This document shows positions 8,262 through 53,711 of a stretch of 64,000 nt of DNA, one piece after another. Position 1 is the first letter of the stretch; every line of letters begins with the position of its first letter. The notes beneath the pieces are model-generated. The model had not been told where the DNA came from and did not search any database. It was given only the letters and a program-made list of their open reading frames with translations. Source of the stretch: Candidula unifasciata (Eukaryota; Mollusca; Gastropoda; Stylommatophora; Geomitridae); NCBI GenBank assembly GCA_905116865.2, contig CAJHNH020000803.1, positions 143,501-207,500 on the forward strand. The letters run 5' to 3'. A program made the translations under genes and the position numbers.

Positions 8262-8768
8262 CTTTTGTTTTTTCTATATATAAACATAAATTGAGAATCT
8301 CTCGTTCAGTCTATACCATATTAAAATAGAGATTCTCTGGTTTGATGAATATTCTCTGCGATAAATAGTTTTTTCTGGATTTATCTTAGATTGCCTGCCT
8401 CATTGTAAACCATGTTAAAATACACTGAGCTTCTCTAGCTTATTTTGTATGATTTCATTTATCACACACCAGACAATGAGTGCAGCAAATTACTTTTACT
8501 TTCTTTGACTCAGTTTATTTAATGGTGCTGACAATGATGACAGGGATGAGGGTAATGATGATGATGAAGTTGATGCTTGTAATGATGATGATAGTAGTGA
8601 TGTTTATTGGTTAGAGATTATAATAATAACAATGATGATGAAGCTGGCTAATGATGATGATGATCACGATGATGATAATGATATGCTTTGTTTTTATATT
8701 TTAATAAACTCAAATATTTTTAATTTTATTTTTATTTATATTTTTTATTTTATTTATTAAACAAACAG

Positions 8769-9039: not shown

Positions 9040-9218
9040 GTAGGAACAAACATCTCAAAATTTCCATCTGAAAACTGGATAAAAAATGTTCTTGTTTCTA
9101 CAAATCTTATTCTGGATTTGTTTTTAGAATAGCAGTTGGCACATTACGTTGTGGTTTACAGAAAGGCTGCGGAGCCTGGGCTTTTGGCCCAACTGTCAGA
9201 TATGATCAAACAACCTCC

Positions 9219-10431: not shown

Positions 10432-10522
10432 GACCATAAGTGCTCTGATCTCCTCCTGCTTGTGTCTTTAAATATTCCTAGGCTAACAACTCCCAATCTG
10501 TTCTGTTTGATGTAACGACGGG

Positions 10523-12487
10523 TGGCTTCTGTGGGAATTTCCTGTCCTGCCGTTCTAATCGTACACCCAGGGCATGCAGACATTCAGTGGATCAAAGACT
10601 TTCTTTTCCAATGCAGAGACAGATTCAGAATTGATGGACACATCGGCAAACTGGCAAAACTAAGAAAAGGAGTTCCCCAGGGCAGTGCGATAGCACCAAC
10701 TCTGTTCCTGGTTTACATAAATGATATCACAGCAACCTGCCACCAGCACGTTTCTAATACCCTACATGTCGATGACTTTGCAGTTTGGACAGCCTCCGAA
10801 TACACTACCACAGCCTCATATCTGTTACAGAAAAGTGTGGAAAATGTAGAAGCCTGGACCGAAAAGTGGGGTCTAAAGCTAAATAAATCCAAAAGCACAG
10901 CATCACTTTTCTCTCTCTCCCCCAAAAAAAGAAAAAAGAAAAAGTTTGATAAAAAACCAGCTCATTCCACAGACTGACACTCCTACCTTTCTTGGCGTTA
11001 CACTTGATTTGCGACTAACTTGGAAGTCACATGTAGAAGCAGTACAGGGGAAAGCATTGAAGAAGCTTGCAGTGATGAAAACATTAGCGGGTACCACATG
11101 GGGCGCTAACTCCAGAATCCTAAAATAAGTATATACTGGAGCAGTCAGGCCAGTCATGGAATATGCCTCCACTGTATGGGCTGCAGCAGCCAAGACAACA
11201 ATGGGAAAACTGGACAAGGTTCAGAATATGGGATTAAGGATTCTTCTTGGAGCCATGAAAACCACCCCCATCAGAGAGATAGAGAGGATAGCAGATACTG
11301 AACCACTCAAACTCAGAAGACAATACAAAGCTCTTTTACAGTATGAGAAATTAAAAAGACTTCAAAGTCACCCACTGCATTTTAAATTTCAAGAGAGAAC
11401 AAAAAACAGACTGAAGCATCAGAGCCCCAACCACCTTGCTAGAGAACTGAACAGACAGCACCAAGATCTGCTTGAAAGAGATGTAGCTCTGTGCGAAAAA
11501 CTTAAGCCAGAACCATGGACAAGCAAGCCAGAGAAGGCAAATGTAGTCCTAAAGGTACCAGGGATCACTTCAAAAGATGCCCAGACGGAGACACAACAGA
11601 GAACCTTGGCTCTTGCTATGCTTGATGCGAAGTATCCAAACACCACTTGGACTCGGGTTTTCACCAACGGCTCTGCTATATCTGCAGTCAGAAAGGGAGT
11701 TTGTGGAAAATACATTAAACCCCCTAGCAGTAGAGCAGAAACTCTCTCTCTCTCTCTACCAGCAGGTGACATCTGCACTAACTTCAGAGCTGAGGCAACT
11801 GCCCTCCTTTCTGCAGTCCAACATCTCATCACTCAAGAACACAGAAGGCAAAAAATTGTTATACTTAGTGACTCATTGTCTGTTCTCCAAGCACTATCAA
11901 GCAAAAAGCAAGACAAACTAATTGCAGATCTAAGGACCAACATTGGCTTACTGTCCAAGGAAGCAGAACTGGTCTTGCAGTGAATACCAGCCCACTGTGG
12001 TATTAAAGGAAATAAGAGAGCAGATGAGTTGGCAAAAGCTGGGAGTAATCTTCCACAACCTCATCCACCACACAGCTACAAGGAAACCAAAACAGCGCTA
12101 AAGCAATCTTTCAAGTGGGAGTGGAGAAGGCAGAATGGAGATTACAGACCAGAGAGTGACAGCATAAACAAACTCAACAGGAAAGAACAAACATCAATTT
12201 TTAGACTTCGGACTGGACACTGTGGTCTTCGAGCACACCTGTACAGGATAGGCATAAAAGAATCTGCTGCCTGTGATTGTGGAGCAGAAAGACAGACCCC
12301 TGAGCACATACTGCAGTACTATCCTTACCTCTCCCAGCAAAGACTATGGATCTGGCCCAGGGGATCCACATTGCGAGAAGCTATGGAGGACTGGTGGCGA
12401 CCTTAAACGCACAATCCTATTTTTGACCCAGATGGGAGTCAATGTTTAGCATGACTGATGTCGAACGCAGAAAAAGAAGAAGAAGTA
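10523..12487 (+). pseudogene. 5'-truncated Jockey/I-like LINE: reverse transcriptase plus RNase H
   Basis: The first conserved block, LRKGVPQGSAIAPTLFLVYI, is the RT palm; the usual [YF]xDD active site reads HVDDFAV. After a frame change at about 10920-10980 comes TFLGVTLDLRLTWKSHV (thumb). Nonsense codons lie at 11126-11128 and 11981-11983. The RNase H region has TNGSA (normally TDGSA, so the first catalytic Asp is lost), FRAEATALL, ILSDSLSVLQAL and GNKRADELAK. A C-terminal CDCGAERQTPEHIL is typical of these elements. The element ends GTCGAACGCAGAAAAAGAAG, a (GAA)n tail. It is a dead insertion in an intron of the membrane protein gene, same strand. Confidence 0.88.
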
Positions 12488-15293: not shown

Positions 15294-15739
15294 GTGTAGA
15301 TAATTTTTTTTTTTTCAGTAGCAGTATCACAATTTAGTAAAATGTATTTACATTAACAATGAATATGAAAGAATATAGTTTGCTTCTGTTGAACGTTTCT
15401 CTGCATGCATAATACTAACCTCTAATGTATCTCTCTCCGCAGGCAAATGAGGAGTCCAATTATTTCCCCAAAATCTGCTTTTTCTTGCCTACTTGTTTTT
15501 CTTTTGTTTTGTTTGCATTTCAGTTGTTTAAAATTGCGTTCTACATATGTTGTAATTCTTTGGTTTAATAATTATGATTTTTTTTGGAGGGGAGGGGGGG
15601 GGGGAATGTTTGCATTTCAGTTTTTTTAAGTTACTTGTAGATATTATGTATATTTTTGTACAAATATCTTGTTTTTGTTGTCTGTTGCTGTCACCATCTT
15701 GTCTAATTCTTACTTCTTGTGTCTGCATTGTCCAATCAG

Positions 15740-16134
15740 AACCTTTAATATCGGGGGTGGAGAAACTGAAGTACATTGATGACTCCACGGACGATGAATA
15801 CGTAAACACAGTCCGGACCAGTCTTCTTCCCTCCCGCTCTCCTGCATCAAGGCTCAGTAATGTTGTGGAGGAAACCCCGCCTACAAGCCCATCAATCACT
15901 CAGCAATACCGCCCAAATTGGTCTGCCAACCAATCAAAGTCTGGAGGTTCTAGCAGCTACACAAATGGCTCCACTCCAAAACACCCTCATTCATCTGTGT
16001 CCAGTCAAGGATCACTTACCAATGATGTCATGAGTGTGATGTCCAATCAGATCCAGCCAACAACTGACAATAGAAACAAAGTTGGAAGGGCTCACAGAAA
16101 ACAGGTCGCAAGCGATGAAGACATTGAATGCTGA
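15740..16134 (+). CDS. Membrane protein gene, cytoplasmic tail terminal exon
   Basis: It enters in phase 1 after the acceptor TGTCCAATCAG (ends 15739), agreeing with the donor at 9040, and ends at TGA (16132-16134). It encodes about 131 residues, Ser/Thr/Asn-rich and probably disordered, beginning EPLISGVEKLKYIDDSTDDE. The next residues, EYVNTV, fit the YxN pattern recognised by Grb2-type SH2 domains, so with the preceding exon the tail has at least four candidate tyrosine docking sites. The C terminus, DEDIEC, is not a typical PDZ ligand. A polyadenylation signal follows within 80 nt. The low-complexity tail suggests a scaffold for signalling adaptors rather than a catalytic domain. Confidence 0.8.
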
Positions 16135-36139: not shown

Positions 36140-37129
36140 CTAATAAATGTTCCCCATATACTTTCGGCCGTGGCTGTAACGCACATATCCATTCCCACAG
36201 TTCTTATGTACTGAGTGTTTTGTGCGTGTGACAAAGGTGGATAATGGGCAGTATGAGAGTGTGTGAGCATTAGAGCCTGTAGCCCCGCAGAGTGGGCAAG
36301 TATATGCTCGGAGTGTGGGACAAATAACCACTCCAGTTATGTCCTTACAACAGTGGGATTTGTAAAACTCTTCCCTCTCTCCGTTACTTTTGCAAAATGT
36401 GCAGATGGGAGTAGTAATTAAGCTTGTCAGTGGAACTGGTGATGCCTGTGGTATGCTGAGTGTGATGTTTGGAGTTCTGATTGCAGAAAGTGGAGGTATT
36501 AATGATGGAAATGGTGCTTTCAATGGAGCTCTTAGAGGGGCATCTGGTGCTCTCATGGTAGTAACTGCAGCTTGGAATGCAACATTTGGAATTTGGACTG
36601 TGCCACAGGTCTCTTTCAGCGTGGCTTTTGGAATTTTTACTGTAGCATTTGGGGCTTTGGGTGTGGTTTTTCTGGCTCTAAGTGCGGCTTTTAGATTTGT
36701 GTTTGTGGTTTGTGAGCTTTTGAGTGTGCCTAGGGAGGTTTTGAGTGTGGGAACTGGGACTTCAAGTGTGGTTTCAGGTATGGAGAAGACGCTTGCTGGA
36801 GTTTGGAATGTGATGCTTGTAGTTTTATAAAAGTCACTTTGAATCAAAGGTATGGCATTGGAAGAAGCTTTCTTTGGTTTATCTCGAATTGTGGCCAAAC
36901 ATTGCATGATCATCTGTTTTGATAGCTGGCTGCTATGTTTTGTGGCTTGTGAAATGTCAACTTTTGGTATTTCAGTAGAACATGCAATGGGACTACCTAG
37001 AATCTCATCAGAATCACTTGGCCCCATGGGTGCATAAATTACCTCCACATTTGTAGTCTCTGCCTTTTTCGAAGCCTTAATGCGCCTGAGCATTGCTCGT
37101 GTGAGTGGAAAAAGCTCAACTGGTTCTGG
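36140..37129 (-). CDS. nanos: Nanos-like gene, terminal exon with zinc finger
   Basis: The acceptor is TTTCATCCACAG (ends 37130), entry phase 0, stop TAG at 36142-36140, 329 residues. Residues about 1183-1424 are a Pro/Thr/Ala/Lys-rich linker with loose 8-10 residue periodicity (for example [15 protein letters not shown]). Residues about 1425-1476 are the zinc finger: CTFC, His 13 residues on, C in VVICP, then CPLC, His in NAHT and C in SYCP. The spacing is C-x2-C-x12-H-x10-C-x7-C-x2-C-x7-H-x4-C, exactly that of Nanos. A basic, Tyr-rich tail of 35 residues follows. The predicted role is sequence-assisted mRNA binding and repression in the cytoplasm of germ-line cells, by homology. Confidence 0.9.
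36248..36403 (-). other. nanos: Nanos-type zinc finger (domain)
   Basis: Two CCHC knuckles; all eight zinc ligands are present. The signature stretch [13 protein letters not shown] is close to the invariant core of the family. Confidence 0.93.
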
Positions 37130-37239
37130 CTGTGGATGAAAGTTTAAAACAGATGTGAAATTTGTCAACAAAAGATAAGAGAAACTGCAAATGCGTACAG
37201 GGAGAGCTTGATGTCTGAGATAAAGATGGAAGACTGATG

Positions 37240-38660
37240 GCTGAGGTAAAGTGGGACATGTCTGCGGTAAAGAAAGGACATGTCTGAGGTAAAGAAAGGA
37301 CATGTCTGAGGTAAAGAAAGGACATGTCTGTTTAAAGAAAGAACATGTCTGAGGTAAAGATGGGATATGTCTGAGGTAAAGATGGGACATGTCTGAGTTA
37401 AATATAGGACACGTCTGAGGTAAATATAGGACACATCTGAGGTAAAGATGGGATATGTCTGAGGTAAAGATGGGACATGTCTGAGGTAAAGATGGGATAT
37501 GTCTGAGGTAAAGATGGGACATGTCTGAGTTAAATATAGGACACGTCTGAGGTAAATATAGGACACATCTGAGGTAAAGATGGGACACAGTCTGAGGTAA
37601 AGATAGGACATGTCTGAGGTAAAGATGAGACATGTCTGAGGTAAAGATAGGACATGTCTGAGGTAAAGATAGGACATGTTTAAGGTAAAGATAGGACATG
37701 TCTGAGGTAAAGATGGGACATGTCTGAGGTAAATATAGGACACATCTAAGGTAAAGATAGGACATGTCTGAGGTAAAGATAGGACATGTATGAGGTAAAG
37801 ATAGGACACAATCTGAGGTAAAGATGGGACACAGTCTGAGGTAAAGATGGGACATGTCTGAGGTAAAGATAGGACATGTCTGATGTAAAGATAGGACATG
37901 TTTAAGGTAAAGATAGGACATGTCTGAGGTAAAGATGGGACATGTCTGAGGTAAAGATAGGACATGTCTGAGGTAAAGATAGGACATGTCTGATGTAAAG
38001 ATAGGACATGTTTAAGGTAAAGATAGGACATGTCTGAGGTAAAGATGGGACATGTCTGAGGTAAATATAGGACACATCTAAGGTAAAGATGGGACATGTC
38101 TGAGGTAAAGATAGGACATGTATGAGGTAAGGATAGGATATGTTTAAGGTAAAGATAGGACATGTCTGAAGTAAAGATAGGACATGTCTGAAGTAAAGAT
38201 AGGACATGTTTAAGGTAAAGATAGGACATGTCTGAGGTAAAGATGACATGTCTGAGGTAAAGATAGGACATGTCTGAGGTAAAGATAGGACATGTCTAAG
38301 GTAAAGATGAGACATGTCTGAGGTAAAGATGAGACATGTCTGAGGTAAAGATAGGACATGTCTGAGGTAAAGATAGGACATGTCTGAGGTAAAGATGGGA
38401 CATGTCTGAGGTAAAGATAGGACATGTCTGAGGTAAAGATGGGACATGTCTGAGGTAAAGATAAGACATTTCTGAGGTGAAGATGGGACATGTCTGAGGT
38501 GAAGATGGGACATGTCTGAGGTAAAGATAGGACATGTCTGAGGTAAAGATGGGACATGTCTGAGGTAAAGATGGGACATGTCTGAGATAAAAATGAGACA
38601 TGTCTGAGGTAAAGATAAGACATTTCTGAGGTGAAGATGGGAGTCTTGATGTAAACAATA
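37240..38660 (-). repeat. 22-bp minisatellite in the last intron, about 64 copies
   Basis: The + strand unit is AGGACATGTCTGAGGTAAAG plus AT. On the gene (-) strand each unit reads CTATCTTTACCTCAG|ACATGT, a pyrimidine-rich tract plus CAG. Variants (TGTTTAAGG, ACACATCTGAGG, CACAGTCTGAGG) recur in blocks, showing segmental duplication. Frames of 120-615 codons across it on the - strand (66-bp, 22-residue periodicity) are repeat artefacts; the largest only happens to run into the Nanos exon. Confidence 0.95.
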
Positions 38661-38904
38661 AGAGGGAAGTGTGATGTTGGATGCAGAGAGGGAAGTCTGA
38701 TGTCCAAGCTAAAGAGTAAGGTCTGATATCTCAACATTAAAATGGGAGTCAGGTGTAGGGTGTAAAGAGGGAAATTTGATGTTCAAGACAACCACAGATT
38801 ACATTAAAAAAATAGAAATGCCACATGTTAGGTACATTACAAAAGTCTTCCCAAAAGGTCAACACAGCCTAAAAAGTGTATGTGCAAATATCATGAGAAG
38901 TGAC

Positions 38905-39055
38905 AAAGTTTTACGACATGCCTGTTAGCAGGCCCAGTGGGTCTATTCTCAGGGGGCCCAGTGGGTCTATTCTCAGGGAGCCCAGTGGGTCTATTCTCTT
39001 TGCACTTCTCCCTCCCTCCACAACTGTGGCTCTGGAACCCACATAGTTCAAGCTG
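38905..39055 (-). repeat. Repeat A fragment with a 24-bp triplication
   Basis: ACGACATGCCTGTTAGCAGG, then GCCCAGTGGGTCTATTCTC three times in a row (38935-38999), then TGTGGCTCTGGAACCCACAT. Confidence 0.7.
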
Positions 39056-39491
39056 TGAAAAGCTGCTGTCTTGTTGGTGTGCATACTATTATTTGTCAAT
39101 ACTGAAAGCAATGTCTTCACTACTTATGTTTAAGGGCAGCCTCAAGATTTATTAGTTGCATACCTAGGGAAGGTTAGAGAATTTTTCTTTTATTATAGCG
39201 ATGGTTTGGGCCTGGATCTTCTAAATAAGAACCCCCCCCCCTCCCCTCCCCAGAGATTAGGTATATTTAAAAGCTGTTCATAAAAGAATTTCAAATAATT
39301 TTACTTGTTTACTGATTAAGAAGCTCAAAAGGTGGGGAGGGTGATGATGGGCGCACGGGACCACAGGACGTTACAGCAGCAGCCTTTATTAACAACAAAA
39401 CAAAAATACATTGCGGGAGACAGGACAAGACTCATCAAGCTAAAGAGCTAAAACTCCTTCTGATTTACCAGCCAAACTAAAACAAACTAAC

Positions 39492-39649
39492 CTCAGGTAC
39501 TCGCAAAAGCTTGTCAAAATACTCATTGTCATCCTCCATAAGTGAAGCATGATATATGCGCGCTTTCATGGCTAATGATGCTGCCTCATTATTAGCGTCA
39601 TTAAACAGACTGTCATGATAGTGAAAAAGTGCACGGTTCCATGTCTCAC
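39492..39649 (-). CDS. nanos: Nanos-like gene, exon 5
   Basis: 158 nt. The acceptor is GTTTGGCTTTCAG (ends 39650), the donor GAG|GTTAGT at 39491. It enters in phase 1 and leaves in phase 0, as its neighbours require. The 53 residues (SETWNRALFHYHDSLFNDAN, then NEAASLAMKARIYHASLMED and the end DNEYFDKLLRVPE) are non-repetitive and probably helical, with alternating hydrophobic and charged positions, unlike the arrays upstream. I do not recognise a named domain. The complex composition and perfect phase fit argue for a conserved segment just before the linker and zinc finger. Confidence 0.75.
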
Positions 39650-39934
39650 CTGAAAGCCAAACAACCAGTTTTCTTTTTACAGCATTACACTTTTACTAGC
39701 ACTGCTAGCGGGACAAAACAGAAAGAAACTTACACACCAATAAGTGACAAGACTCAGTGATCCAAAGTGGCAATCTGAAACCAGAATGTGTTGACAGCAT
39801 CCAGAGGTGCCAACATAATCTCTTGGCTGTATATACACCAGGGTGAAATGAAATGAAAGAGCCGACATGCTGGTCTGCAGTAGTTAGTGGAGAAAGACGT
39901 ATAGACAAAGATACTACTTTTAAGTCTATGCCCT

Positions 39935-40110
39935 GGGGCTATGGTAGTCATGTCTATCCACATCCTTCTGTCTCATGCACTTTCAACCAGCTTTGACACA
40001 GATAATCCTCCATACCATTATGTTAAACTACCCAGCATCTGTTCTCTCAGTCTCCTTCTGCCTCTCCTCCCCTCCAGCTTTCCCACTGCCAGGAAGGCAC
40101 TCCATGTATT
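39935..40110 (-). pseudogene. Small LINE-like fragment in intron 4
   Basis: CATGTCTATCCACATCCTTC, TGTCTCATGCACTTTCAACC and CTTTGACACAGATAATCCTC match the 85-bp units at 59115-59375. Confidence 0.5.
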
Positions 40111-40469
40111 CCCAAAAATAAAGCAAACATACCAAATGCTCTGCATTCCAGAGACAAGACGAGCTACTCAGATGATGAAACTCTTTGTAGAAAATGTGTA
40201 TTAAAATAGCACAAGCAAGCAGAATCTAATTGCTGGGCAAAGCAGATGTCTCAGTCATTTTCTACTGGGTACAGTGAGCTTTGGAGACGCTAATGGCTGC
40301 ATCAAGACCATAAATGGGTCAGATCGATGTCAATGCATGTTACAAGTAACTGTCACTAGTCAATGAATCATAGTTTTACTATACACTCAAAGAATCATAC
40401 TGTGGAAAGAATGCATTAGCATTAAACTACTTACACATGCAAAGGATTCATATGTTTAGTAGACTAAAA

Positions 40470-40863
<394 letters not shown>

Positions 40864-40924
40864 AAGAATGATACTTTGAGATTTTAGGTACAAAGAATAT
40901 ATCTAGGCATGTACACTCAAATTA

Positions 40925-41720
40925 ATACTTTGGAAATATCCACATAAAGAATCTTTTCTCTAGAAATAAAAAACTCAAAATCCACATAAAGAATCTCTAG
41001 AAATAAAAAACTCAAAATCCACACAAAGAATATTTCTCTAGAAATAAAAAAACTCAATATCCACATAACGAATCTCTCTAGAAATAAAAAACTCATTATC
41101 CACATAACGAATCTCTCTAGAAATAAAAAAACTCAATATCCACATAAAGAATCTCTCTACAAATAAAAAACTAATTATCCACATCAAGAATCTCTCTAGA
41201 AATAAAAAACTCAATATCCACATAAAGAATCTTTCTCTAGAAAAAAACAACTCAATATCCACATGAAGAATCTTTCTAGAAATAAAAAGAACTCAATATC
41301 CACATAAAGAACCTATCTCTAGAAATAAAAATCTCAATATCAACATAAAGAATTCTCTAGAAATAAAAAACTCAAAATCCACAAAGAATTCTCTAGAAAT
41401 AAAAACTCAATATCCACATAAAGAATTCTCTAGAAATAAAAAAAAATTATCCACATAAAGAATTTTTCTCTACAAATAAAAAACTTAATATCCACATGAA
41501 GAACCTATCTCTAGAAATAAAAATCTCAATATCAACATAAAGAATTCTCTAGAAAAAAAAAAAACTCAATATCCACATAAAGAATTCTCTAGAAATAAAA
41601 AGAACTCATTATCCACATAAAGAATTTCTCTACAAATAAAAAACTTAATATCCACATGAAGAATCTCTCTAGAAATATTTTTAAAAAAAAACTCAATATC
41701 CACATAAAGAATCTTTCTCT
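40925..41720 (-). repeat. About 40-bp minisatellite in intron 4
   Basis: The + strand unit is AATAAAAAACTCAATATCC followed by ACATAAAGAATCTCTCTAGA, about 19 copies with length variation in the A run and CT run. Confidence 0.9.
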
Positions 41721-42111
41721 GGGAATATATACTAAGAGTTAAGACTCTAAATGACAACAATCCAACTGCCTTTTTAAAAACAAACGCTGAAAGAAAACAA
41801 CAAACTATGACTTTTTAGGGTGGTGGGGGAAAGGTGGAATGAACTATGTCACTTTCTGTCTAATGTTGCATCATGAAAGTAAATGGGGAGGGGGGAGGGC
41901 GGGAGAGTTACATCACTTTTTTTTCATGGAGGGGTTAAGTGGCAGGGTTGGGGTGGTGGAAATTATCTTACATGTTTCAATGAATAATACAAAAAGGGGT
42001 AAGGGGGAAGAAAACCTTGTATTTTGTAACATGATGATAAATAAGGGAGAGAGTGTGAACCACTCTTCACTCATTGCTTATAATATGACAAGTTGTATAC
42101 AATTTACTTAC

Positions 42112-43110
42112 TTTCTTGTTCCTTTTTGGCTTTGAGCTCGGCCATGTCAAGGGCAAAGTAATCAACACCCTGATAGCTGGCTCCCTCCTCACGGACTGCT
42201 CCAAGGGTGGCCTGCTCTTTGTGGAGATCGGACTGATACTGCACACTGAATGGTTCATAGAGTCCTGGCATTGTACCCTGTGAATTGGGTGTCTGCATGC
42301 TTTTCACTCTCATGCAACTCCACTCCATGGGTATGTAAGATGGTACATCCATTCTTTGCTCATTCGGGTATGTTGACACTCTCGGCTCCTTTATGGCAGA
42401 GGTATAGAAGAGTTCACAATTACTTGCCCTATTGGTTGATCCATGTAATCTTGACATATTAGTTGATGATCCAAGTACTCTTGACCCAGTGGTGGATCCA
42501 AGGACTCTTGACCAAGTGGTAGATCCATATATGTCTGACCCAGTGGTGGATCCAAGTACCGTAGACCCAGTAGTGGATCCAAGTACTCTAGACCCAGTGG
42601 TGGATCCAAGTACCATAGACCCAGTGGTGGATCCAAGTACTGTAGACCCAGTGGTGGATCCAAGTACTGTAGACCCAGTGGTGGATCCAAGTACCGCAGA
42701 CCCAGTGGTGGATCCAAGTAATCTTGACCCAGTGGTGGACAGAAGTAATCTTGACCCAGTGGTGGATCCATTTATAGCTGACCCAGTGGTGGATCCATTT
42801 GCATCTGACCCAATGGTGGAACCAAGTACTTTTGACCAAGTGGTGGATCCATATATGTGTGACCCAGTGGTGGACCCAAGTATGTTTGACCGATTGGTCC
42901 ATTCAGGTAATCTAGACTTTCTGATGGGTCTGCAATCTATTGGCTCATTTAAGGTCACAATGCCTGTCTGCTCACTGGGGAGGTCAATAGATTCACCCTC
43001 ATTGCGAAGGGGTCCAAGCAGATTGGTCAATCTATCAATTTTTCTACTCGTATTAGCCAATCGAGAACTGATGTCTTGATTTCCAGAGGGTCTCTGGTCA
43101 TTCATTAGTC
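42112..43110 (-). CDS. nanos: Nanos-like gene, exon 4 (GSTTGS nonapeptides)
   Basis: 999 nt, phase 1 in and out. The acceptor region reads TTTTGTCAGGCAG; only the second AG (exon from 43110) keeps the frame. The donor is GAAA|GTAAGTAAA at 42111. The exon starts LMNDQRPSGNQD, passes a charged segment, then has about 16 nine-residue repeats of the form GSTTGSxVL (variants GSTTWSKVL, GSTIGSDAN), and ends with about 115 unique residues (SAIKEPRVSTYPNEQRMD to MAELKAKKEQE). Ser/Thr/Gly-rich repeats are likely disordered. The 27-bp units are nearly identical in the middle, pointing to recent homogenisation. Confidence 0.8.
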
Positions 43111-43231
43111 CTGCCTGACAAAAGTTAAAATCAGACCCCCCGTGTATAAGTGTGGGCCAAAATATTCCTTGGGAGTCTATGATTTCAGAAGTTCTGTTCT
43201 CAGTTGGGGAGTCCTAGGGTTCTTTTCATAC

Positions 43232-45445
43232 GGGGTCCAGTGGTTTTCTGCTTTTCTGAGGCTCCAGAATCCAACTGCTCTTCGATGGGTCCAAAAAAGG
43301 ACCCAAAGTTGCTATCTATTTTTGTGTAACACTCTTTTGCTGTGGCAGAGAAACTCTCTTCTATCATGGGGTCATACATTAATCCAAAGATGTTCTGTTG
43401 AGTAATGGGGTCAAACATGTGTCCAACGGTTCTCTCCTTTTTGGGGAGTCCAGAAGCACTATCGAAAGCAGTCTGCTCTGTGAGGGGGTCAGGGCCACTC
43501 TGCACTTTGGTGGACCCAGAAGCACTCTGCACTTTGGTGGACCCAGAAGCACTCTGCACTTTGGTGGACCCAGAAGCACTCTGCACTTTGGTGGACCCAG
43601 AAGCACTCTGCACTTTGGTGGACCCAGAAGCACTCTGCACGTCGGTGGACCCAGAAGCACTCTGCACGTCGGTGGACCCAGAAGCACTCTGCACGTCGGT
43701 GGACCCAGAAGCACTCTGCACGTCGGTGGACCCAGAAGCACTCTGCACGTCGGTGGACCCAGAAGCACTCTGCACGTCGGTGGACCCAGAAGCACTCTGC
43801 ACGTCGGTGGACCCAGAAGCACTCTGCACGTCGGTGGACCCATGAGCACTTAGCTTTTTAGAGGCTCCGATGATGATTGGCACCTTGGGGACTCCAGTGT
43901 CAATTGGTTCTCTGACAACACCAGTGCCAATTTGCTCATCAAGGACTTCAGTGCCAATTTGCTCATCAAGGGCTTCAGCGCCAATTAGCTCATCAAGGGC
44001 TTCAGTGCCAATTTGCTCATCAAGGGCTTCAGTGCCAATTTGCTCATCAAGGGCTTCAGTGCCAATTTGCTCATCAAGGGCTTCAGTGCCAATTTGCTCA
44101 TCAAGGGCTTCAGTGCCAATTTGCTCATCAAGGGCTTCAGTGCCAATTTGCTCATCAAGGGCTTCAGTGCCAATTTGCTCATCAAGGGCTTCAGTGCCAA
44201 TTTGCTCATCAAGGGCTTCAGTGGAACTCTCCTCTTCAGTAGCACCAGTTTCAGATGGCTCTTTGAGGGCACCACTGCCATTCAGCTCTTCAGGGGCTCC
44301 AGTGTCAACTTGTTCTTTTGTGGCAACATCGTTAATTGGCTCTTGGGGAGCTCTAGTGTCACTTGGCTCTTTGGTGGCACCATTGTCACTTGACTCTTTT
44401 GCGGCACCATTGTCATTTGGCTCTTTGGCGGCAACATTGTCATTTGGCTCTTTGGCAGCACCATTCTCATTTGGCTCTTTAGCTGCACCAGTGTCATTTG
44501 AATCTTTTGTAGAAAAATTGTTACTTGGCTCTTTGGGAGCTCTAGTATCAGTTGGCTCTTTGGAAGCTCCAGTGTCAAATGGCTCTTTAGCAATATCAGT
44601 GTCATGTTCCTCTTTGGGGGCTCCAGTATCACACTCTTCTTTGGAGGGTCCAATGGGTATCTGCTCACTGAAGGGACTAATAGTGGCTTTTTCACTGATG
44701 GGCTCATTCTGTTTCTGTTCATGAGTGGGTTGTGAGTTGCTCGGCTCACTAGTGTTTCCTAAATCCTTGCTGGCAGAATCAAGCTGTTCATTGGTGAGTT
44801 CATGGACTTTATGCAGATTTCTGAGCCACAAAGGGAGGCATTCATTGGTGGGTTTTAAATTGTTGTCTTCATTAGTGGATTTAAAATCTCCTTGCTCATT
44901 TGTACATTTTAAAACTCCCAGCTCAGTGACAGGTTTAACATCCTGCTTGTTAGGGGACTTAAGATTTCCCTGTTCATTGGTACATTTAAAATCTTCCTGC
45001 TCATTGGTGCACTTAAAATCTCCCTGATCACTGGTACATTTTAAATTTCGGTGTTCATTGGTACACTTAAAATCTCCCTGTTCATTGGTGCATTTAAAAT
45101 CTCTCTGCTCACTGGTATATTTAAAATCTTCCTGTTCATTGGTGCATTCAATATTTCCCTGCTTGTTGGTTGATTCAAATGGCTTCTGTTCACTAGTTGA
45201 TTTAAAGTCTTTGTTCTCACTGGTGCTTTTAATGTCTTTCTGTTGATTGGTTGATTTAGAGTTTTTCCTTTTCGCATGTCGAAATACTCTTTGCTCATTA
45301 GTGGGTGCAACATTACGTTCACTGGTGAGTATAATGTGGTTCTGTTCATTGCTGGGTGGGTAATTGCTGGGTGGGTCATTGCTAGGTGGGTCATTGCTGG
45401 ATGGGAACAGACAATATTCAGCCTGTTCTCTGAAGGCACAAGGAT
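43232..45445 (-). CDS. nanos: Nanos-like gene, exon 3 (giant nonapeptide array)
   Basis: 2,214 nt open throughout. The acceptor is TTTATTCACTCACAG (ends 45446), the donor CCCC|GTATGA at 43231, phase 1 in and out. After DPCAFREQAEYCLFPSS come about 15 units like CTNEQGDFK, then a block like DTGAPKEPS (about 15, including NGAAKEPND), about 11 of EALDEQIGT, and 13 of GSTDVQSAS / GSTKVQSAS. All are nine residues (27 bp) and stay in one register: a polar residue plus E, then Q or P, recurs at matching positions. The last 80 residues are non-repetitive. An exon of more than 700 codons without a stop, in low-GC surroundings, is strong coding evidence. Confidence 0.82.
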
Positions 45446-45752
45446 CTGTGAGTGAATAAAGATAATTAAAAATGTAACTAAGAAAGTGGGAAAGTAGCTA
45501 AGAAAATGGGAAAGTAGATTAAGTGGGAAAGTAGATAAAGTGGGAAATAAGATATAGTGGAAAAGTAGATATGGGAAAGTAGATACAAAGAGTAGGAAGA
45601 AAATTTGACAGTGAGTTAGGTTTTAAGGGCTGAACAATGGATCAGCATCATGGCACATGGCTAGTAAGGCTAGTAGTTAGTTAGCAGAGTAAGTAGATGG
45701 TTACATAGATAGTAATGGGAAGGTGTGTGGGCAGAAGGACTGGAAAGTAGGT
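45446..45752. other. Start of intron 2, simple AT/AG-rich DNA
   Basis: Loose repeats of GGGAAAGTAGATAAG type at 45485-45600. Nothing else seen. Confidence 0.5.
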
Positions 45753-46125
45753 AGCCTCAGTCAGGTGTCAATTGCGCACTTCCAGGGGCTATTACGCCAG
45801 CGCCGAAATGCAAACTTCCGCCACCGCCAAGAGTATCCCCCATGCTGAGTGGATTGGGGCTTAACTAGATGGTTAGGACTCACGAGCAAATAAAATGAAG
45901 GAAGCTGCAGGAGATGCGGTAGCTGCTGCTCGTGAGTCCCAGCCATCTAAGTTTAGCCCCAATCCATGCCGCGCTAGGGGCGTGGGGGATACTCTCAGTG
46001 GTGGCGGAAGTTTCCGTAAGTGCGCAATTTAAGACGGAAGTGTGCAATTGACACGTGACTGAGGCCCTGTTAGGGTATATTTTCCGGCTCGATAATTTAG
46101 TACTGTTTTTTCTGAGGATAGCCGT
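45753..46125. mobile_element. Palindromic MITE, copy 2
   Basis: It shares TGCAGGAGATGCGGTAGCTGC, TGAGTCCCAGCCATCTAAG and GGGATACTCTC with the copy at 34000-34379. The arms GCCTCAGTCAGGTGTCAATTG and CAATTGACACGTGACTGAGG are inverted. The outer left end is missing. Confidence 0.7.
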
Positions 46126-46189
46126 AAATTGATAGTGTCATATATATATATATATATATTAATAGCTGAAATCACAGAAGACCAACAAC

Positions 46190-46601
46190 TATTAGACATT
46201 GTGGTACTAGAGAGTGCAAAAATAGGAGTTTCTTTGTAATGTCAAGAAAACACACAATGGTTATATCAAGGAAGAAAACCCCAAAATGTGACATAGCAAC
46301 ATAGGGGAAAGAGCTTAACCAAGTTAATAAATTCAAGTATCTGGGGACATTCGTAACATCAGACGGACAGAAATTAGAGCAGATTTGTCCAGGCAAAGAA
46401 AGACAGCTTTTTAAAAGATGATAGTTTCCTCGATAATAAATCATTAAACATCAGAATACAAGCACTGAAATGTTATATCGAGCCTAGTCTGTTGTATGCT
46501 AGGGAATCTTGGAATGTAAGCAAACAGTTTGGAGGAAACTGAGATGAGGTTCTTGAAAAGAATGTTGTGAATAGCTTGGGATGCCAGAATAACAATGACT
46601 G
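46190..46601 (+). pseudogene. RTE-like reverse transcriptase C-terminal fragment
   Basis: Conceptual pieces: MSRKHTMVISRKKTPKCDI, FKYLGTFVTSDGQKLE, KSLNIRIQALKCYIEPSL, then LLYARESWN and LEETEMRFLKRML. These are the characteristic order of an RTE-clade endonuclease-RT C terminus. Frameshifts and stops throughout. It lies in intron 2, antisense to the Nanos-like gene. Confidence 0.78.
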
Positions 46602-47113
46602 CCTGGAAGTGGCTAAAGAGAGTAGAACATTATATACCACAGTGAGAAGGAGACAAAGGTCTTTGATCATGTGATGAAAAAATAAGCCTGGAAATGGCTA
46701 AAGAGAGTAGAACATTATATACCACAGTGAAAAGGAGACAAAGGTCTTTGATCATGTGATGAAAAAATAAGCCTGGAAATGGCTAAAGAGAGTAGAACAT
46801 TATATACCACAGTGAGAAGGAGACAAAGGCCTTTGATCATGTGATGAAAAAATAAGCCTGGAAATGGCTAAAGAGAGTAGAACATTATATACCACAGTGA
46901 GAAGGAGACAAAGGCCTTTGATCATGTGATGAAAAAATAAGCCTGGAAATGGCTAAAGAGAGTAGAACATTATATACCACAGTGAGAAGGAGACAAAGGC
47001 CTTTGATCATGTGATGAAAAAAATAAGCCTGGAAATGGCTAAAGAGAGTAGAACATTATATACCACAGTGAGAAGGAGACAAAGGTCTTTGATCATGTGA
47101 TGAAAAAATAAGC
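46602..47113 (+). repeat. 85-bp tandem repeat derived from LINE coding DNA, six copies
   Basis: The unit starts CCTGGAAATGGCTAAAGAGA. Copies begin at 46602, 46687, 46772, 46857, 46942 and 47028. In one frame it reads LEMAKESRTLYTTVRRRQRS and then FDHVMKK, the next segment of the RTE protein. Since 85 is not divisible by 3, each copy shifts frame. Confidence 0.92.
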
Positions 47114-47445
47114 CTGGAAAATATTATGATGACTGGAAAGATCACTAGCAGAAGATGCAGAGGAAGACAAAAAAAATTGATGAAACAATTGATGAAAAAA
47201 ATAAGCCTGGAAAATATTTTGATGACCGGAAAGATCACTAGCAGACGATGCAGAGGAAGACGAAACAAATTGATGAAAAAAAAAGCCTGGAAAATATTAT
47301 GATGACTGGAAAGATCACCAGCAGAAGATGCAGAGGAAGACGAAACAAATTGATGGAAAAAAAAGCCTGGAAAATATTATGATGACTGGAAAGATCACCA
47401 GCAGAAGATGCAGAAGACCCCAAAAAAAAATGATGGTGCATGGCT
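47114..47445 (+). repeat. About 80-bp tandem repeat from the next LINE segment, four copies
   Basis: The unit contains CCTGGAAAATATTATGATGA and CAGCAGAAGATGCAGAGGAA and reads SLENIMMTGKITSRRCRGR, the segment that follows FDHVMKK in the RTE protein. It continues to about 47520 (WQGEIERIDPKHQRQLI). Confidence 0.9.
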
Positions 47446-47548
47446 TTAGAGAGTGGCAAGGAGAAATAGAGAGAATTGATCCAAAACACCAAAGACAATT
47501 GATATCCGGAGATGCATAAACTTCTATACCAACTGGCAAGACATTTGA

Positions 47549-47672
<124 letters not shown>

Positions 47673-48718
47673 AGCACAGATCAATTCTACAGAATTATAT
47701 GCATACATTTACAAAATTACATTGACCATGCAGCGTGGAGGGAGCCAATCAGAAAGGGTATGAGAATAAAGACAATTATTGCAGACAGAATGAGAGCTGA
47801 GCTTCTGCGAAGAAACACAAACACAAATGATGGTAACAGTTAATGAAATCCCACGCTTTAAGTGTGCAAGACCTTATTTGACGCTTGCACGTTTTGTTAG
47901 TCACACTCGCAATGAACTGAGTCCCATGTCACCTGGTACCATAATATAACACTATCATCTAGAATGACGGAAAGGTAACAAAAACTACAATAAACAAAAG
48001 ATAGTTTACTCTATATAGCAATCTACACAAATATAGACGATACAAATGGCTAACCATACAAAATCCAGCCAAAAATTGGAGGAGGCGGAAAACGGATTGC
48101 ACGACGCCAAGGTCGCAGATATTCAGAATGACCTGCATGAAATGCCCCATGGTACTCAATAGACCAAGGAGCAGCCTGTGTGGTCATCTCACAGAGACTC
48201 TCGGTAGGCTGCGTCCAGAGTTAAAAGTTAAAAACAGGGAACCGGTCAAATGGGGAGAACAGAAACTAATGCCGATCCTATCTTCAAAGTCCAGTATGGG
48301 CTTTTCTACTCAGGTGGGACAGGGACACCGGAAAATGCCATTGCAGAATTGTAGCGGCCACAGACTCTTAGAGTGTCGTATTTTATTGCTTTTAACTTTA
48401 TTTTATGTTTGTAAAGACTTTTATTTATAGTTTTATAAATTTTCCTAAACTCTTAAAAGTTAGAAAGCATATTTGTTCAACAGGTATTGCGAATGGATAT
48501 TGTGTAATTTGATCTTGTCCTCCCTAAAATTTGAGACACATAGAATCTCCCAATCGCCAGTTGTAGGTCAGCTTAGCCGCTCACGGGTTTGGAAACGGCC
48601 GTAAATTCACGGGGTACAGCTTAAACACGGAGAACTGGACTTCATCCAAATCTCAGGGCTGTTTCGTTTAAATTCTAATTATAACTCAATTTCATTCTGT
48701 TCTTAACCAGTGATGCTA

Positions 48719-48720
<2 letters not shown>
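47673..48720. other. Intron 2 DNA, no feature assigned
   Basis: Mixed composition with short frames; none has a recognisable motif. Confidence 0.4.

Positions 48721-48721
<1 letters not shown>

Positions 48722-48788
<67 letters not shown>
48722..48788 (+). repeat. (CT)n microsatellite
   Basis: About 33 CT units. Confidence 0.95.
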
Positions 48789-48889
48789 GTCGTTTCTTTA
48801 TTTGAGATAGCAATTACAGTAATTTCTTCTAAACCAGTTGGTTAGTAAGTTCGTTTTCTTATTAAAGGTGTGGTAATCTTTCTCTTCTT

Positions 48890-49010
48890 GTCATTCTGTG
48901 TTGCTTTCTCTGTCCTGTTCTGTTGTATGGCAGTGAATTTTGGAATGTGAGCAGACAAGTTAAAAAGAGATTGGAGGCAACTGAGATGTGCTTCTTGATA
49001 ATTACGTTGT
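48890..49010 (+). pseudogene. RTE-like RT fragment, short
   Basis: VLLYGSEFWNVSRQVKKRLE then ATEMCFL corresponds to the LLYxxESWN...EATEMWFL word of RTE elements. Confidence 0.65.
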
Positions 49011-49154
49011 TAATAAAAAATATTATTTGCAAATAAAGCTTCTATCCATTGTGTGTGTGTGTGTGTGGGGGGGGGGGGTTATGGCGTTCTTTACCACTAG
49101 GGGTCGCGTTAGCGGGGAGGGGGGGGGGGTTATGGCGTTCCTTCTTTACCTACT

Positions 49155-49315
49155 AGGGGTCGCGTTAGCGCAGTCGATATAAGACTCGCGTTCTAATCCA
49201 GCTGCAACTCGCTGCAGCCCACAGTCGGTGTTCGAAAAAGGGCGGTCAACGTGATTCACACAGCCTCAAGGAAATGGGTACCAGAGTTAACACTGGGGTA
49301 AATGGAGGAACGTCG
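49155..49315 (+). mobile_element. tRNA-derived SINE-like element
   Basis: A-box-like GCGTTAGCGCAGTCGATATA and B-box-like GTCGGTGTTCGAAAAAG, then CAGCCTCAAGGAAATGGGTACC, as in family B bodies. A related G-run/CGCGTTAGCG segment is duplicated just upstream (49066-49130). Confidence 0.6.
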
Positions 49316-49678
49316 CTGTAGCTACGGAGTTACGTGCAGACGGCGACACAGGCAGACAGTTTCTTATCAGCTGTCCGTACTGGTGGTAGAGCACTTATGG
49401 TTTATAATCATGTACAATGGCGCTGGTTCACATCTCCAGACTTTACCTTTTACAACTAGATCCCGGTGCAGCTATGTGTACTTGCAAACAGCAAAGATTT
49501 CACCACGAACTGGTCATCGCGAAAACGACTTGGAATGGCGTTCCCATCAAGCACTGTGATGCATTTATTACCTAAACTTTTTTTTTTTTTTATGGGCAGA
49601 GACGGAATAAAATACTCCTCACTGAGACTGTAGGTCATGATGACGAAGATGACGATGACAGAAACAAACGAATCTTAC

Positions 49679-49780
49679 CTTTTGGTCGACATGAAGACTC
49701 TACGCGGTTGGCTCCAGGTGAAATCAGAGACGAAGAACAGTTGATTCGCTGCTCCAACGTCCGCCCGAACAAGGCACGTC
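49679..49780 (-). CDS. nanos: Nanos-like gene, exon 2
   Basis: 102 nt. The acceptor is CTGACTTTCTCTATAG (ends 49781), the donor AAAAG|GTAAGA at 49678; phase 1 in and out. It encodes RALFGRTLEQRINCSSSLIS followed by PGANRVESSCRPK: basic, with Ser, no repeat. The first residues continue the N-terminal segment from exon 1. Perfect splice sites on both sides and phase agreement with exons 1 and 3 support it; only homology or cDNA could prove it. Confidence 0.65.
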
Positions 49781-50089
49781 CTATAGAGAAAGTCAGTTGG
49801 GTATAGCTAACGTGGCATGTTCAATAAAAATGATAAACAGGGGAGTGGTACTTACAGTATACATAACACTTGGGGGGGGGGGGGGGGGGGTTGGAATAAC
49901 AGAAAGACCGCGAAACATCGCTACATTTAAATGTATGAGTCGCATACTTTACATTTTATGAGGGAAAAGTGACATAGATACATACATATATAGGAAAAGG
50001 ATCAAAGGTAGAATGTTAAAATATTAAACAGAAAGGGAGTGCAAAACAGAGCCCGTAACTATGGAATCAATCTCCTTCCTATCGTCACA

Positions 50090-50290
50090 GGTTGTCAACT
50101 CAAGTGGACAGTTCTGGTTTTTATTAGCCTACTTTGGTGCCGTTCCACACTACAACTTTTATGCGCACTTCCATTTTACATATCTGGCTTATTTGTATGC
50201 AGACTGTTGGTTTTACGACATGCTTATTATTACGACTTTTACGACATGCTTATTAGTGGATCTACTTATTGCCTTAATGAGTCTGCAGGA
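50090..50290 (-). repeat. Repeat A, degraded
   Basis: GTTCTGGTTTTTATTAGCC, CATTTTACATATCTGGCTTA, ATGCAGACTGTTGGTTTTACG, and a duplicated TTTACGACATGCTTATTA. Confidence 0.55.
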
Positions 50291-50809
50291 CGCAGTCAGT
50301 AAAAATTAGGAAGAACAAAGAAACAACGAAACAAAGACAACACATTATAGAAGTGAGACGAGAGAAGCGGGTGACTGTTATAATGACTACGGTCAACCGT
50401 CGCGGCAACGAAGGGAACTGACGTCTTGTTCGCGTAGCTAGCGACAGCGGCGATCGGTGAAAGTCTTGGTCTTTTGATGTCGGCGTGAGAGTGAGCGCCA
50501 GGTAAGAGGAAATAACCTTGAAAATTAACATAACTTAACCCTCGACCTTATTTTAACTATTTATAAATTTAAGTACGTGTTTTTTGTCATAAGTAGCTTA
50601 TACATGTACCGATACACATTTTTTAAATATTATAATACGGGAATTTAATTACAGATCAAGAATATATTATGATCAAAACATATTTGCAAACTGTTTTTCT
50701 TTTTGGTGAATCTATTTTCGGTTCTTTCTTCTTTTTATTTTAATCATCTTTTGTTATGTTGGGGCGGAAAAGAAGGAAGGGGGGGGGGGGGGGTCCTTGC
50801 ATTTGAGGG

Positions 50810-51385
50810 GGCCGGAAAGCCTCACACTGTAATCAAGGGGGTGTAAGTTCCTTGCACTATAATCAAGGGGGTGTAAGTTCCTTGCACTATAATTAAGGGG
50901 GTGTAAGGGCCTTACAGTATAATCAAGGAGGTGAGAGTTTCTTGCAATATAATCAAGGGGGTGTGAGGGTCTTGAACTATAATCAAGGGGGCATGAAGGC
51001 CTTGCAATATAATCAAGGGGGCGTGAGGGACTTGCATTACAATCAAGGGGCGTGAGGGACTTGCATTAAAATCAAAGGGGTCTGAGGGCCTTTCACTATA
51101 ATCAGGTGGTGTGAGGGCATTGCAGTATAATCAAGGGGATGTGAGGGCCTTGCAGTATAATTAAGGGGGTGTGAGGGCCTTGCAGTATAGTTAGGGGGAA
51201 TGAGGGACTTGCAATATATTCAGGGGTGGGGGAGTCTTGCAATATACTTTCAAGGGAGACATGAGGTCCTTGCAATATACTCAATGGGCATGGGGGCCTT
51301 GCAGTATACTCAATGAGCATGGGGGCTTTGCAATATACTCAATGAGAGCGTGGCAATATATACTATGGGGGCGTGACAATATAAT
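50810..51385 (+). repeat. 30-bp G-rich minisatellite in intron 1
   Basis: The unit is TATAATCAAGGGGGTGTGAG followed by GGCCTTGCA, about 18 copies with decreasing similarity to the right. Strong G/C strand asymmetry. Confidence 0.9.
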
Positions 51386-51599
51386 TAAAAAGAAGAGGGG
51401 GGGGGGGTGCGTGACCTAAAAAAAAGGTTGGAGACCGCTAAGCCAGAGAAAGTTAAACTTTGGACAAGATGACAAAATGACAGGATGACAAAATGACAGA
51501 ATGACAAAAGACAGAATGACAAACTCAAAGAAGGAGAAATCGACAGAATGAACGGAGATAGAAGAGAACCATAACATCACTCTTTTTTAATAAACTAAT

Positions 51600-52015
51600 C
51601 CTCTTCACCAACTGTAAACTCTGACGGAAAGTTCTGGTTGTTCGTCCACTTCTGGACACTAGGTTCATGCACATGTGTTTCACAGATCTGAGGTATTATC
51701 ATTCAGACTGAATAAATGAAATCCAGCCACCCCAGGACACCCATCACGCGATAAACACCCGGTGACACAAAGTATCATCACAATGAGTATCATCCGGACA
51801 GAGGTTCCCAGAAACTCACGTTCAACCCTTAGGTTATAATCGAGGGCACCCGACTACAGCCGGGTTGGGGATCTGCAGACTGTTGGTTCCTTGCCTCTCA
51901 GACAGATTTACTGCGACTTTCAAGGAAGCTCCCATTTAGTCGACAGGCTTTTTGGGTAGCCATTGGGTCTATTTTCGTTTTTCCCACAATTAGGCCCCAA
52001 AACCCACACAGGGAT
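51600..52015 (-). repeat. Repeat A interrupted by inverted repeat C
   Basis: Repeat A left part 51600-51711 (CAACTGTAAACTCTGACGGA, TTTCACAGATCTGAGG) and right part 51877-52012 (GCAGACTGTTGGTTCCTTGC ... CCCAAAACCCACACAGGG). Between them, 51715-51880 is repeat C on the opposite strand (reverse complement has GTTTCTGGGAACCTCTGTCC and TTTGTGTCACCGGGTGTTTA). Repeat C therefore inserted after repeat A. Confidence 0.75.
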
Positions 52016-52189
52016 GCTAAACTAATGAATGCTGGTGCATTGCACGCAAAGAGTTCATTTGGTTCTTAATTTATAACGTGAAATCCCCGTGGGAAATCCA
52101 CAGCTGACCTGACAGTCCATTACTTCAAGGGGTGCAAGTGTGCTGTTGTTTGGTTTTTTTTTTTTTTTTTGAGTGTTCATCTAGTGTCT

Positions 52190-52232
52190 TCTAATCCTAA
52201 CCCTAACCCTACCCCTAACCCTAACCCTAAAC
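52190..52232 (-). repeat. Interstitial telomere-like (CCCTAA)n
   Basis: CCTAACCCTAACCCTACCCC and further units. It is followed by unrelated intron DNA, not by the foldback element of 730-1545. Confidence 0.85.
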
Positions 52233-52379
52233 TTGGCGTAGATAAATCGCGAGAAACTACAACCTGAAAATCCTAGAAGTTATTGGAATTGTCTGTTGTG
52301 AGGTAGTCGTGACGTCAGGGGTAAGTTATAAATTAAGTACCGTTCATTTTATACCTTTGAAATGCTAATTTGGAAGCGA

Positions 52380-52685
52380 CCATGGTCTAGCGGCTAGACG
52401 ATCGCCTGCAGATCGGAAGGTGGTGGGTTAGGTTCCTGACGAGGGCCAGGTTGTTGTTTTTTTTTAATGATATTAAAACACTTTAATTGACAGAATGAAA
52501 ATTTTGGGCAGTCGCCGTGGTGTAGTGGTCAGACGGTCGCCTGCGAATCCGTAGGCCATGGGTTCAATTCCGCATCGAGGTAGACTTTTGTAATAATTGT
52601 GGATCCCAGGTCTACCCAGCCTCAAATAGGTACCCAGTAAAGTCATAGGAAGTAAAGGCGACCGGCCTGATGCTGACCACATCAC
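52380..52685 (+). mobile_element. Two tRNA-derived SINE heads, the second nearly complete
   Basis: The first (52380-52460) has A box TGGTCTAGCGGCTAGACG and B box GTGGGTTAGGTTCCTG. The second (52505-52685) has TGGTGTAGTGGTCAGACGG and ATGGGTTCAATTCCGC, then ACCCAGCCTCAAATAGGTAC and GGAAGTAAAGGCGACCGG, then TGCTGACCACATCACC. The latter body is family B. Confidence 0.8.
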
Positions 52686-52794
52686 CAATTTAGTTCATAT
52701 TGGTCTAACAATAATATAAGTCTCCCCCTACATGCCCAGTAGTACGCTAGAAGACATGAAGTGTCCATTTCTTCCTTCCTTCTTGCAGAGTCAA

Positions 52795-53010
52795 CAACAA
52801 GATTATGGAAACGATTATAAATTTCAAGATTACGGAAAATACACCAGATTTCGGAAAAGATTATAAATTTCAAGATGACAGAAAATGAACCAGATTACGG
52901 ACAAGATTATAAATTTCAAGATGACAGAAAATGAACCAGATTACCGACAAGATTATAAATTTCAAGATGACAGAAAATGAACCAGATTACGGAAAAGATT
53001 ATAATAAATC
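52795..53010 (+). repeat. About 46-bp tandem repeat in intron 1
   Basis: ACAAGATTATAAATTTCAAG plus ATGACAGAAAATGAACCAG units, four copies; degenerate relatives continue to about 53430. Confidence 0.85.
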
Positions 53011-53638
53011 TCAGAACCTGGAAAAGATAAATGTATTCCGTGATATTTTATATAAAGTGAATTAATGATTATACTAGCAAGTCTGTAAAGAGGGAGAAAT
53101 TGCACTGGCGACAAATACGACATAGAAGACATGTTTCACGAAAAAGAGCAAAAATATTAAAGGTCTTAAGAAGAAAGAACATTTCGATTTGAAGTCACAA
53201 AAAGCAGTCAAAAAAAACAGTAATAGAAGTTTTGAAAACACCACAACTAGGTGAAATGTTGGAAGTTTCAGTAACAATATTGCGAAAGATAAGTAAATCT
53301 CAAAAGAACAAGATTACAGACAAGATTACGAATCTCAAGAACAAGATTACAGAAGAGATTACGGAATCTCAAGAATACGATTAAAAAGGATATAAATTCA
53401 AGAGAAAGATTACAGAAAAGATTATAAATGTCAAAATTTAGGTACACTACCCGATTGAAGAACAAGTTCAAAAGATTTGAAAAAAATTAACAGAAGAGGT
53501 CTGGATATAGTGGATAAGAAGAATATAGGCCTAAAGTCCAAAAATGCAGAAGTGAAATGTATGAAAAAAACGCAAATACAATAAACGGCTACTTTTTATC
53601 AAAGTGAAAATAAAACACTTAAACGAAATTGTACTTAC

Positions 53639-53711
53639 GGGCCATTGTAGCAGATATTCCAAACAGAAAATCGTTTGAAAAGTTTTCAAAAAGCTCTACG
53701 AAAAATTGCAT
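53639..53711 (-). CDS. nanos: Nanos-like gene, exon 1 (start codon exon)
   Basis: From the ATG at 53711-53709 (G at -3), 24 codons and one base run to the donor GGCCC|GTAAGT at 53638, phase 1. The residues are MQFFVELFENFSNDFLFGIS, then ATMA. FENFSNDFLFGIS resembles the NOT1-interacting motif near the N terminus of vertebrate Nanos proteins (aromatic-x-x-aromatic-x-[ND]-[DY]-[FY]-[LF]); this is an inference from memory of the family. A second in-frame ATG at 53645-53643 has a stronger context (ACAATGG) and could be the start instead, losing 22 residues. A TATA box lies about 90 nt upstream. Confidence 0.6.

Follow-up and report, generated by a model that had tools for sequence, protein, structure and literature searches.

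A snail Nanos protein with a linker probably enlarged by coding minisatellites

A 64,000-nucleotide stretch of the genome of the snail Candidula unifasciata (contig CAJHNH020000803.1, C803, positions 143501-207500; hereafter the window), taken from a 1.34 Gb assembly of 7,176 contigs, encodes a Nanos protein on its minus strand. Six minus-strand exons join in frame into an open reading frame of 1,511 codons plus a stop, in which exon 6 carries the Nanos zinc finger and exons 3 and 4 carry arrays of nine-residue repeats. To judge from its sequence, this is a true Nanos, and the repeat exons probably belong to the same gene. The best explanation, and one that we consider likely, is a single nanos gene in which exon 3 supplies a short motif shared with other Nanos proteins, exon 6 supplies the finger, and the linker between the two has been enlarged by coding minisatellites. 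The exon coordinates, the GT-AG dinucleotides at all five junctions, the mutually consistent phases (1, 1, 1, 1 and 0) and the open frame, as put forward in a first-pass annotation of the same DNA, were all reproduced.

The C-terminal finger matches the zf-nanos family (PF05741) with an E-value of 8.4e-23 and 80.8 bits (cut-off 27). Three pieces of the protein were scanned against Pfam (residues 1-500, 700-1130 and 1131-1511, residues 501-699 being left out), and the last of these alone gave a match. The zinc ligands follow the pattern C-x2-C-x12-H-x10-C-x7-C-x2-C-x7-H-x4-C with exact spacing, which bears out the earlier description of a perfect CCHC-CCHC finger at the C-terminal end, and Nanos fingers of known structure were matched as well (PDB 3alr, E 1.2e-17; 5kl1, E 5e-17). 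An AlphaFold model of exon 6 built with six sequences was poor, with a mean predicted local distance difference test score (pLDDT) of 37.9 that leaves the finger fold unsupported, and the assignment therefore rests on sequence; on that footing, the Nanos identity of the finger protein is certain.

Nanos proteins, which act in germ cells as mRNA repressors, generally have a conserved finger and divergent N-termini, and the finger binds target mRNA together with Pumilio. A protein search with exons 5-6 returned five Nanos-like matches among 3,916 candidates: P0001 from Bradybaena similaris (BsWGS_07111), P0005 from Bulinus truncatus (Btru_065206) and three other relatives, P0002-P0004. Their fingers are identical to that of the present protein at 41-47 of 52 positions, and all five have a similar C-terminal tail, which suggests that they are orthologues. 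The finger of Bradybaena P0001 is identical at 47 of 52 positions, which points to a heterobranch and probably stylommatophoran snail as the source, and the similarity to this protein spans the finger, the tail and the upstream linker. In contrast to the 1,511 residues of the present model, the snail relatives are only 225-269 residues long, and no nonapeptide arrays were seen in them. The Bradybaena genes were annotated with BRAKER3 and RNA-seq on soft-masked sequence (PMC12042801). On another contig of the Candidula genome (C4121), two halves of a Nanos finger lie about 3 kb apart (L015 ~7608 and L016 ~716), as if split by an intron.

A short motif, Y.LFP[ST]S, argues that the repeat exons belong to nanos. 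Exon 3 opens with DPCAFREQAEYCLFPSS, which contains YCLFPSS. P0004 has the sequence LEQTRDYLLFPSS near its N terminus, including YLLFPSS, and a Nanos paralogue on contig C999 (L002 607-1719) carries DSLLYSLFPTS. The paralogue is a 370-residue open frame that holds both the motif and the Nanos finger, and no nonapeptide arrays were seen in it. A six-frame scan that covered the window together with 11 of 16 loci from the same genome found two matches to the motif in 257,140 residues, namely exon 3 and the C999 paralogue, the latter being found after the motif had been defined. When the N-termini were shuffled 100,000 times each, the motif turned up in 14 shuffles for C999 and in 8 for P0004; these figures flatter the motif, because it was first noticed between the exon 3 protein and P0004. 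The motif lies 1,354 residues ahead of the finger in the present model, 139 in P0004 and 118 in the C999 paralogue.

In P0004, LFPSS is followed by a weaker match of the form EYF..L...PExEP, which repeats the order seen across exons 3 and 5/6. The corresponding sequence of exon 5, DDNEYFDKL...PEPEP, resembles P0004 weakly (20 of 1000 shuffles for the region, 171 of 1000 for the whole pre-finger model). When the three N-termini were aligned with MAFFT, the motif of P0004 fell into register and P0005 did not. A comparison of the P0004 N terminus with exons 1-5 was also tried, but its top match was a low-complexity stretch rather than the motif (49 of 1000 shuffles), and it was discarded.

Human NANOS1-3 likewise have a short, aromatic-containing N-terminal motif ahead of a C-terminal finger. 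This CNOT1-interacting motif (NIM), through which vertebrate Nanos recruits CCR4-NOT, is described as almost invariant at positions F1, W4, D6, Y7 and L10 and has been reported from some molluscs (PMC4003280). Compared with the NIM, the exon 3 sequence FREQAEYCLF retains F1 and Y7 and has similar residues in E6 and F10. The strict form, F..W.DY..L, is absent from this protein, P0001, P0004 and P0005, the four that were scanned. Because the resemblance is loose, a contact between the exon 3 motif and CCR4-NOT is only a guess.

Exons 3 and 4 contain five arrays of 27-bp repeats, named A to E (Table 1). In four partly overlapping stretches the lag-9 identity was 0.417, 0.397, 0.665 and 0.682, against shuffled maxima of 0.129, 0.124, 0.127 and 0.205 (200 shuffles each), and the nonapeptide periodicity is far above chance. 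The arrays are shorter than the roughly 1,000 residues first claimed, amounting to 145 + 432 + 144, or about 720, residues and to at most about 790 with the flanking degenerate stretches. Their description as Ser/Thr/Glu/Gln nonapeptides was right in periodicity and had to be corrected in composition: these four residues account for 35% of the sequence ahead of the finger and for 36-54% of individual arrays. The pre-finger part is rich in Ser and Thr and low in aromatic residues, at 4.6%, and exon 3 is acidic (64 K+R vs 136 D+E).

The finger exon has a repeat of its own, a degenerate 21-bp unit encoding a heptapeptide. Between residues 1285 and 1412 the lag-7 identity is 0.24, a value equalled by none of 1000 shuffles. 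In the relatives, the lag-7 identity was reached by 2 of 1000 shuffles for P0002, 21 for P0003, 39 for P0004 and 658 for P0005; for P0001 the count was 193 of 1000 by identity and 15 of 1000 by BLOSUM, with a lag-14 peak of 0.232 (unshuffled). There thus appear to be weaker heptapeptide signals in two or three of the five relatives. Since the heptapeptide repeat lies in an exon that certainly belongs to Nanos, repeat growth occurs there as well as in the debated exons. Directly upstream of exon 6 is a 22-bp satellite of 65 copies (window 37211-38642), and the frame of the finger exon remains open into it as far as 38011.

No Met occurs in exon 3 ahead of residue 735, and the arrays therefore require an upstream exon if they are to be translated from an ATG. 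Splice sites were ranked with a weight matrix among the 956 donors and 1,055 acceptors of the locus, and the donors of exons 2, 4 and 5 are good. Together with the shared motif and the lack of an early Met, these donors favour the earlier placing of the repeat exons in a Nanos mRNA, in which the joint transcript is a prediction. An ATTAAA hexamer lies 54 bp beyond the Nanos stop.

A number of observations weigh against a single gene with coding repeats, some concerning the motif and the gene model and others, taken up with the alternatives below, the repeats and the relatives. The local score of the motif against the start of exon 3 was equalled by 4 of 1000 shuffles, and against residues 1-120 by 43 of 1000; some 5-mer in common with the pre-finger model was found in as many as 376 of 2000. 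Exon 1 and the start codon are doubtful and unproven. With a codon model from a small training set, the 24 codons of exon 1 score -0.232, below the -0.114 averaged by noncoding DNA, and 20 alternative first exons run from an ATG to a donor that is equal or at most 2 bits weaker, some of them only a few codons long. Among the splice sites, the donor of exon 3 scores poorly, at rank 212 of 956, and exons 4 and 6 have acceptors of intermediate rank (149 and 164 of 1,055). Three AATAAA hexamers lie between exons 5 and 6.

The codon model, which was trained on 699 codons with exon 6 among them, did not give frame 0 as the top sense frame for residues 59-118 and 798-868. The frame of exon 4 is open upstream to 43213 and overlaps that of exon 3, which ends at 43200. 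Because of this overlap, the 121-nt intron between them is doubtful, and the two may instead be one uninterrupted exon whose length is off by a single base close to a C-run.

We consider it very improbable that exons 3 and 4 do not code at all and are minisatellite DNA lying within or upstream of nanos, which would owe its open frames solely to a repeat length, 27, divisible by three. The idea draws on the presence of other 27-bp arrays in the same genome that are open in several frames. One of them, on contig C779 (L009 1016-2698), consists of 63 copies and has several open frames, distributed over both strands; its nine indels each measure three bases, and the site is not known to hold a gene. 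It calls for caution in inferring coding from an open frame. If the repeats were neutral, the probability of finding no stop would be 0.11 for array A, 0.017 for B, 0.51 for C and 0.056 for E. In arrays C and D the copies differ too little for a selection signal to be seen. Arrays B and E, with ratios of nonsynonymous to synonymous differences (pN/pS) of 0.80 and 0.94 and with 0.78 in another sense frame of B, show little purifying selection. In array A, on the other hand, pN/pS is 0.39 in frame and higher, at 0.72 and 0.98, in the two remaining sense frames, although one antisense frame gives 0.42.

Against noncoding repeats, there is no stop in 1,069 codons, non-repeat parts included (737 in exon 3 and 332 in exon 4), whereas 11 and 110 stops interrupt the two alternative sense frames of exon 3, and 10 and 22 those of exon 4. 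The nine-residue register is unbroken over residues 284-715, where the printed units read from KEPxDTGA through ALDEQIGTE to STDVQSASG, and the repeat exons have five apparent frame-shifting indels per 477 substitutions, against 43 per 293 in nine other arrays of the window, four of which have none (sums by hand). The motif shared with other Nanos proteins also speaks for coding.

A more serious alternative, although still an unlikely one, is that the locus holds two genes. Nanos itself would then be short, about 320-355 residues, with its start codon in exon 5 (Met 1157 or 1167) or exon 6 (Met 1195), and exons 1-4 would form a low-complexity gene of their own upstream. P0001-P0003, at 225-269 residues (269 in P0001), start near the equivalent of exon 6, and the exon 3 motif was not found in P0001, P0002, P0003 or P0005, four of the five relatives. 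The first 46 residues of P0001 show no similarity to exon 5 and the start of exon 6 (430 of 500 shuffles score as high) or to the whole model (468 of 500). Of 73 candidates compared with the stretch from the exon 4 tail to the beginning of exon 6, none gave a match at E <= 10, leaving both the exon 4 tail and exon 5 without a relative among them, and residues 1015-1511 had no match among proteins of 831-2644 residues, the best 7,985 candidates being scored. A stop also occurs in the exon 4 frame just beyond the exon 4 donor. However, that donor is the third best of 956, the motif at the start of exon 3 is shared with two other Nanos proteins, and P0002 and P0003, whose contigs are 1,014 and 1,287 bases long, may be incomplete. 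No AATAAA or ATTAAA occurs between exons 4 and 5 (shuffle mean 2.03), which is weak evidence, as the same was true of 64 of 500 shuffles, and of 128 of 500 for the non-repeat part. One Nanos gene might also produce long and short isoforms by alternative promoters or splicing, the short form being conserved and the repeat exons optional. This would accommodate the exon 3 motif and the short relatives alike, but a start in exon 5 would lose the shared motif, nothing points to a second promoter, for which no search was made, and we regard it as improbable.

Under the favoured reading, a single nanos gene with coding repeats, the linker would have reached about 1,350 residues by in-frame expansion of 27-bp (nonapeptide) minisatellites in exons 3 and 4, and exon 6 would have added its degenerate 21-bp (heptapeptide) repeat. 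By analogy with other Nanos proteins, the finger would bind target mRNA with Pumilio, and the N-terminal part might recruit CCR4-NOT or another repressor. The linker, which is long, rich in Ser and Thr and acidic in exon 3, could on a modest reading be a flexible, fast-changing spacer and on a bold one a multivalent platform or scaffold. Taken furthest, the bold reading pictures a germline repressor of about 1,500 residues that carries about 80 nonapeptides between a repressor-recruiting N terminus and the finger. Some of these would be acidic and rich in Ser and Thr, others could stack as a solenoid, and together they would make up a fast-evolving multivalent scaffold, so that an RNA-binding protein serves as its own granule scaffold; we hold this to be decidedly speculative and rather unlikely.

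The predicted structure agrees in part with the earlier claim that the repeats are disordered. Exon 3 modelled alone, with no related sequences added, has a mean pLDDT of 47.2, with 557 of 737 residues below 50, in keeping with disorder. Array D, with its near-perfect ASGSTDVQS units, departs from this and was predicted as a series of short strands in a regular ladder arrangement, at a pLDDT of about 77-92. Such a ladder may be an artefact of perfect repeats. A Foldseek search of the exon 3 model against the PDB gave 48 matches at E <= 10 and none at E <= 0.001, and no fold is therefore claimed for this exon.

If the model is true, coding minisatellites can lengthen a germline regulator's linker about tenfold, presumably without loss of function. 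The series of motif-to-finger distances would then offer a way to relate linker length or valency to repressor recruitment, target choice and entry into germ granules. It would also suggest that repeat masking can split such genes and that short annotated relatives may be truncated. To judge by titles and abstract openings, searches of the open-licence literature on Nanos brought up no giant or repeat-bearing Nanos, in line with the first-pass annotation, which had seen none described.

Table 1. Features of the nanos model, in window coordinates
Feature	Position	Strand	Residues	Remarks
Proposed exon 1, doubtful	53639..53711	-	1-24	open; donor rank 26/956
Proposed exon 2	49679..49780	-	25-58	open in frame; donor rank 1/956, acceptor rank 38/1,055
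Exon 3	43232..45445	-	59-796	shared motif, then arrays A-D; acceptor rank 32/1,055
FREQAEYCLFPSS, motif Y.LFP[ST]S	45396..45434	-	63-75	
Array A	44835..45269	-	118-262	consensus QEDFKCTNE; 27-bp period
Array B	44232..44771	-	284-463	consensus EPNDTGAPK; 27-bp repeats
Array C	43908..44231	-	464-571	EALDEQIGT; 27-bp repeats
Array D	43500..43853	-	590-707	ASGSTDVQS / ASGSTKVQS; 27-bp repeats
Exon 4	42112..43110	-	797-1130	donor rank 3/956; 5' boundary uncertain
Array E	42464..42895	-	869-1012	GSxVLGSTT; 27-bp repeats
Exon 5	39492..39649	-	1130-1182	open; acceptor rank 36/1,055, donor rank 13/956
Exon 6	36140..37129	-	1183-1511 + stop	linker, finger and C-terminal tail; resembles P0001 in finger, tail and upstream linker
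Degenerate heptapeptide (21-bp) repeat	36431..36808	-	1290-1415	just ahead of finger
Nanos (CCHC)2 zinc finger	36248..36403	-	1425-1476	
C-terminal tail	36143..36247	-	1477-1511	similar tails in 5/5 relatives P0001-P0005

Elsewhere in the same genome, a 27-bp array on contig C706 (L011 770-1815; NTFYSIPLA) is in frame with a gene-like stretch downstream. On the plus strand of the window, open frames at 10516-12406 resemble a non-long-terminal-repeat (non-LTR) reverse transcriptase that includes an RNase H part, and gene-like open frames at 8724-9071 and 15556-16134 may belong to a plus-strand neighbour convergent with nanos. Short interstitial telomere-like TTAGGG/CCCTAA repeats are found at window positions 867-971, 1195-1248 and 52191-52230.

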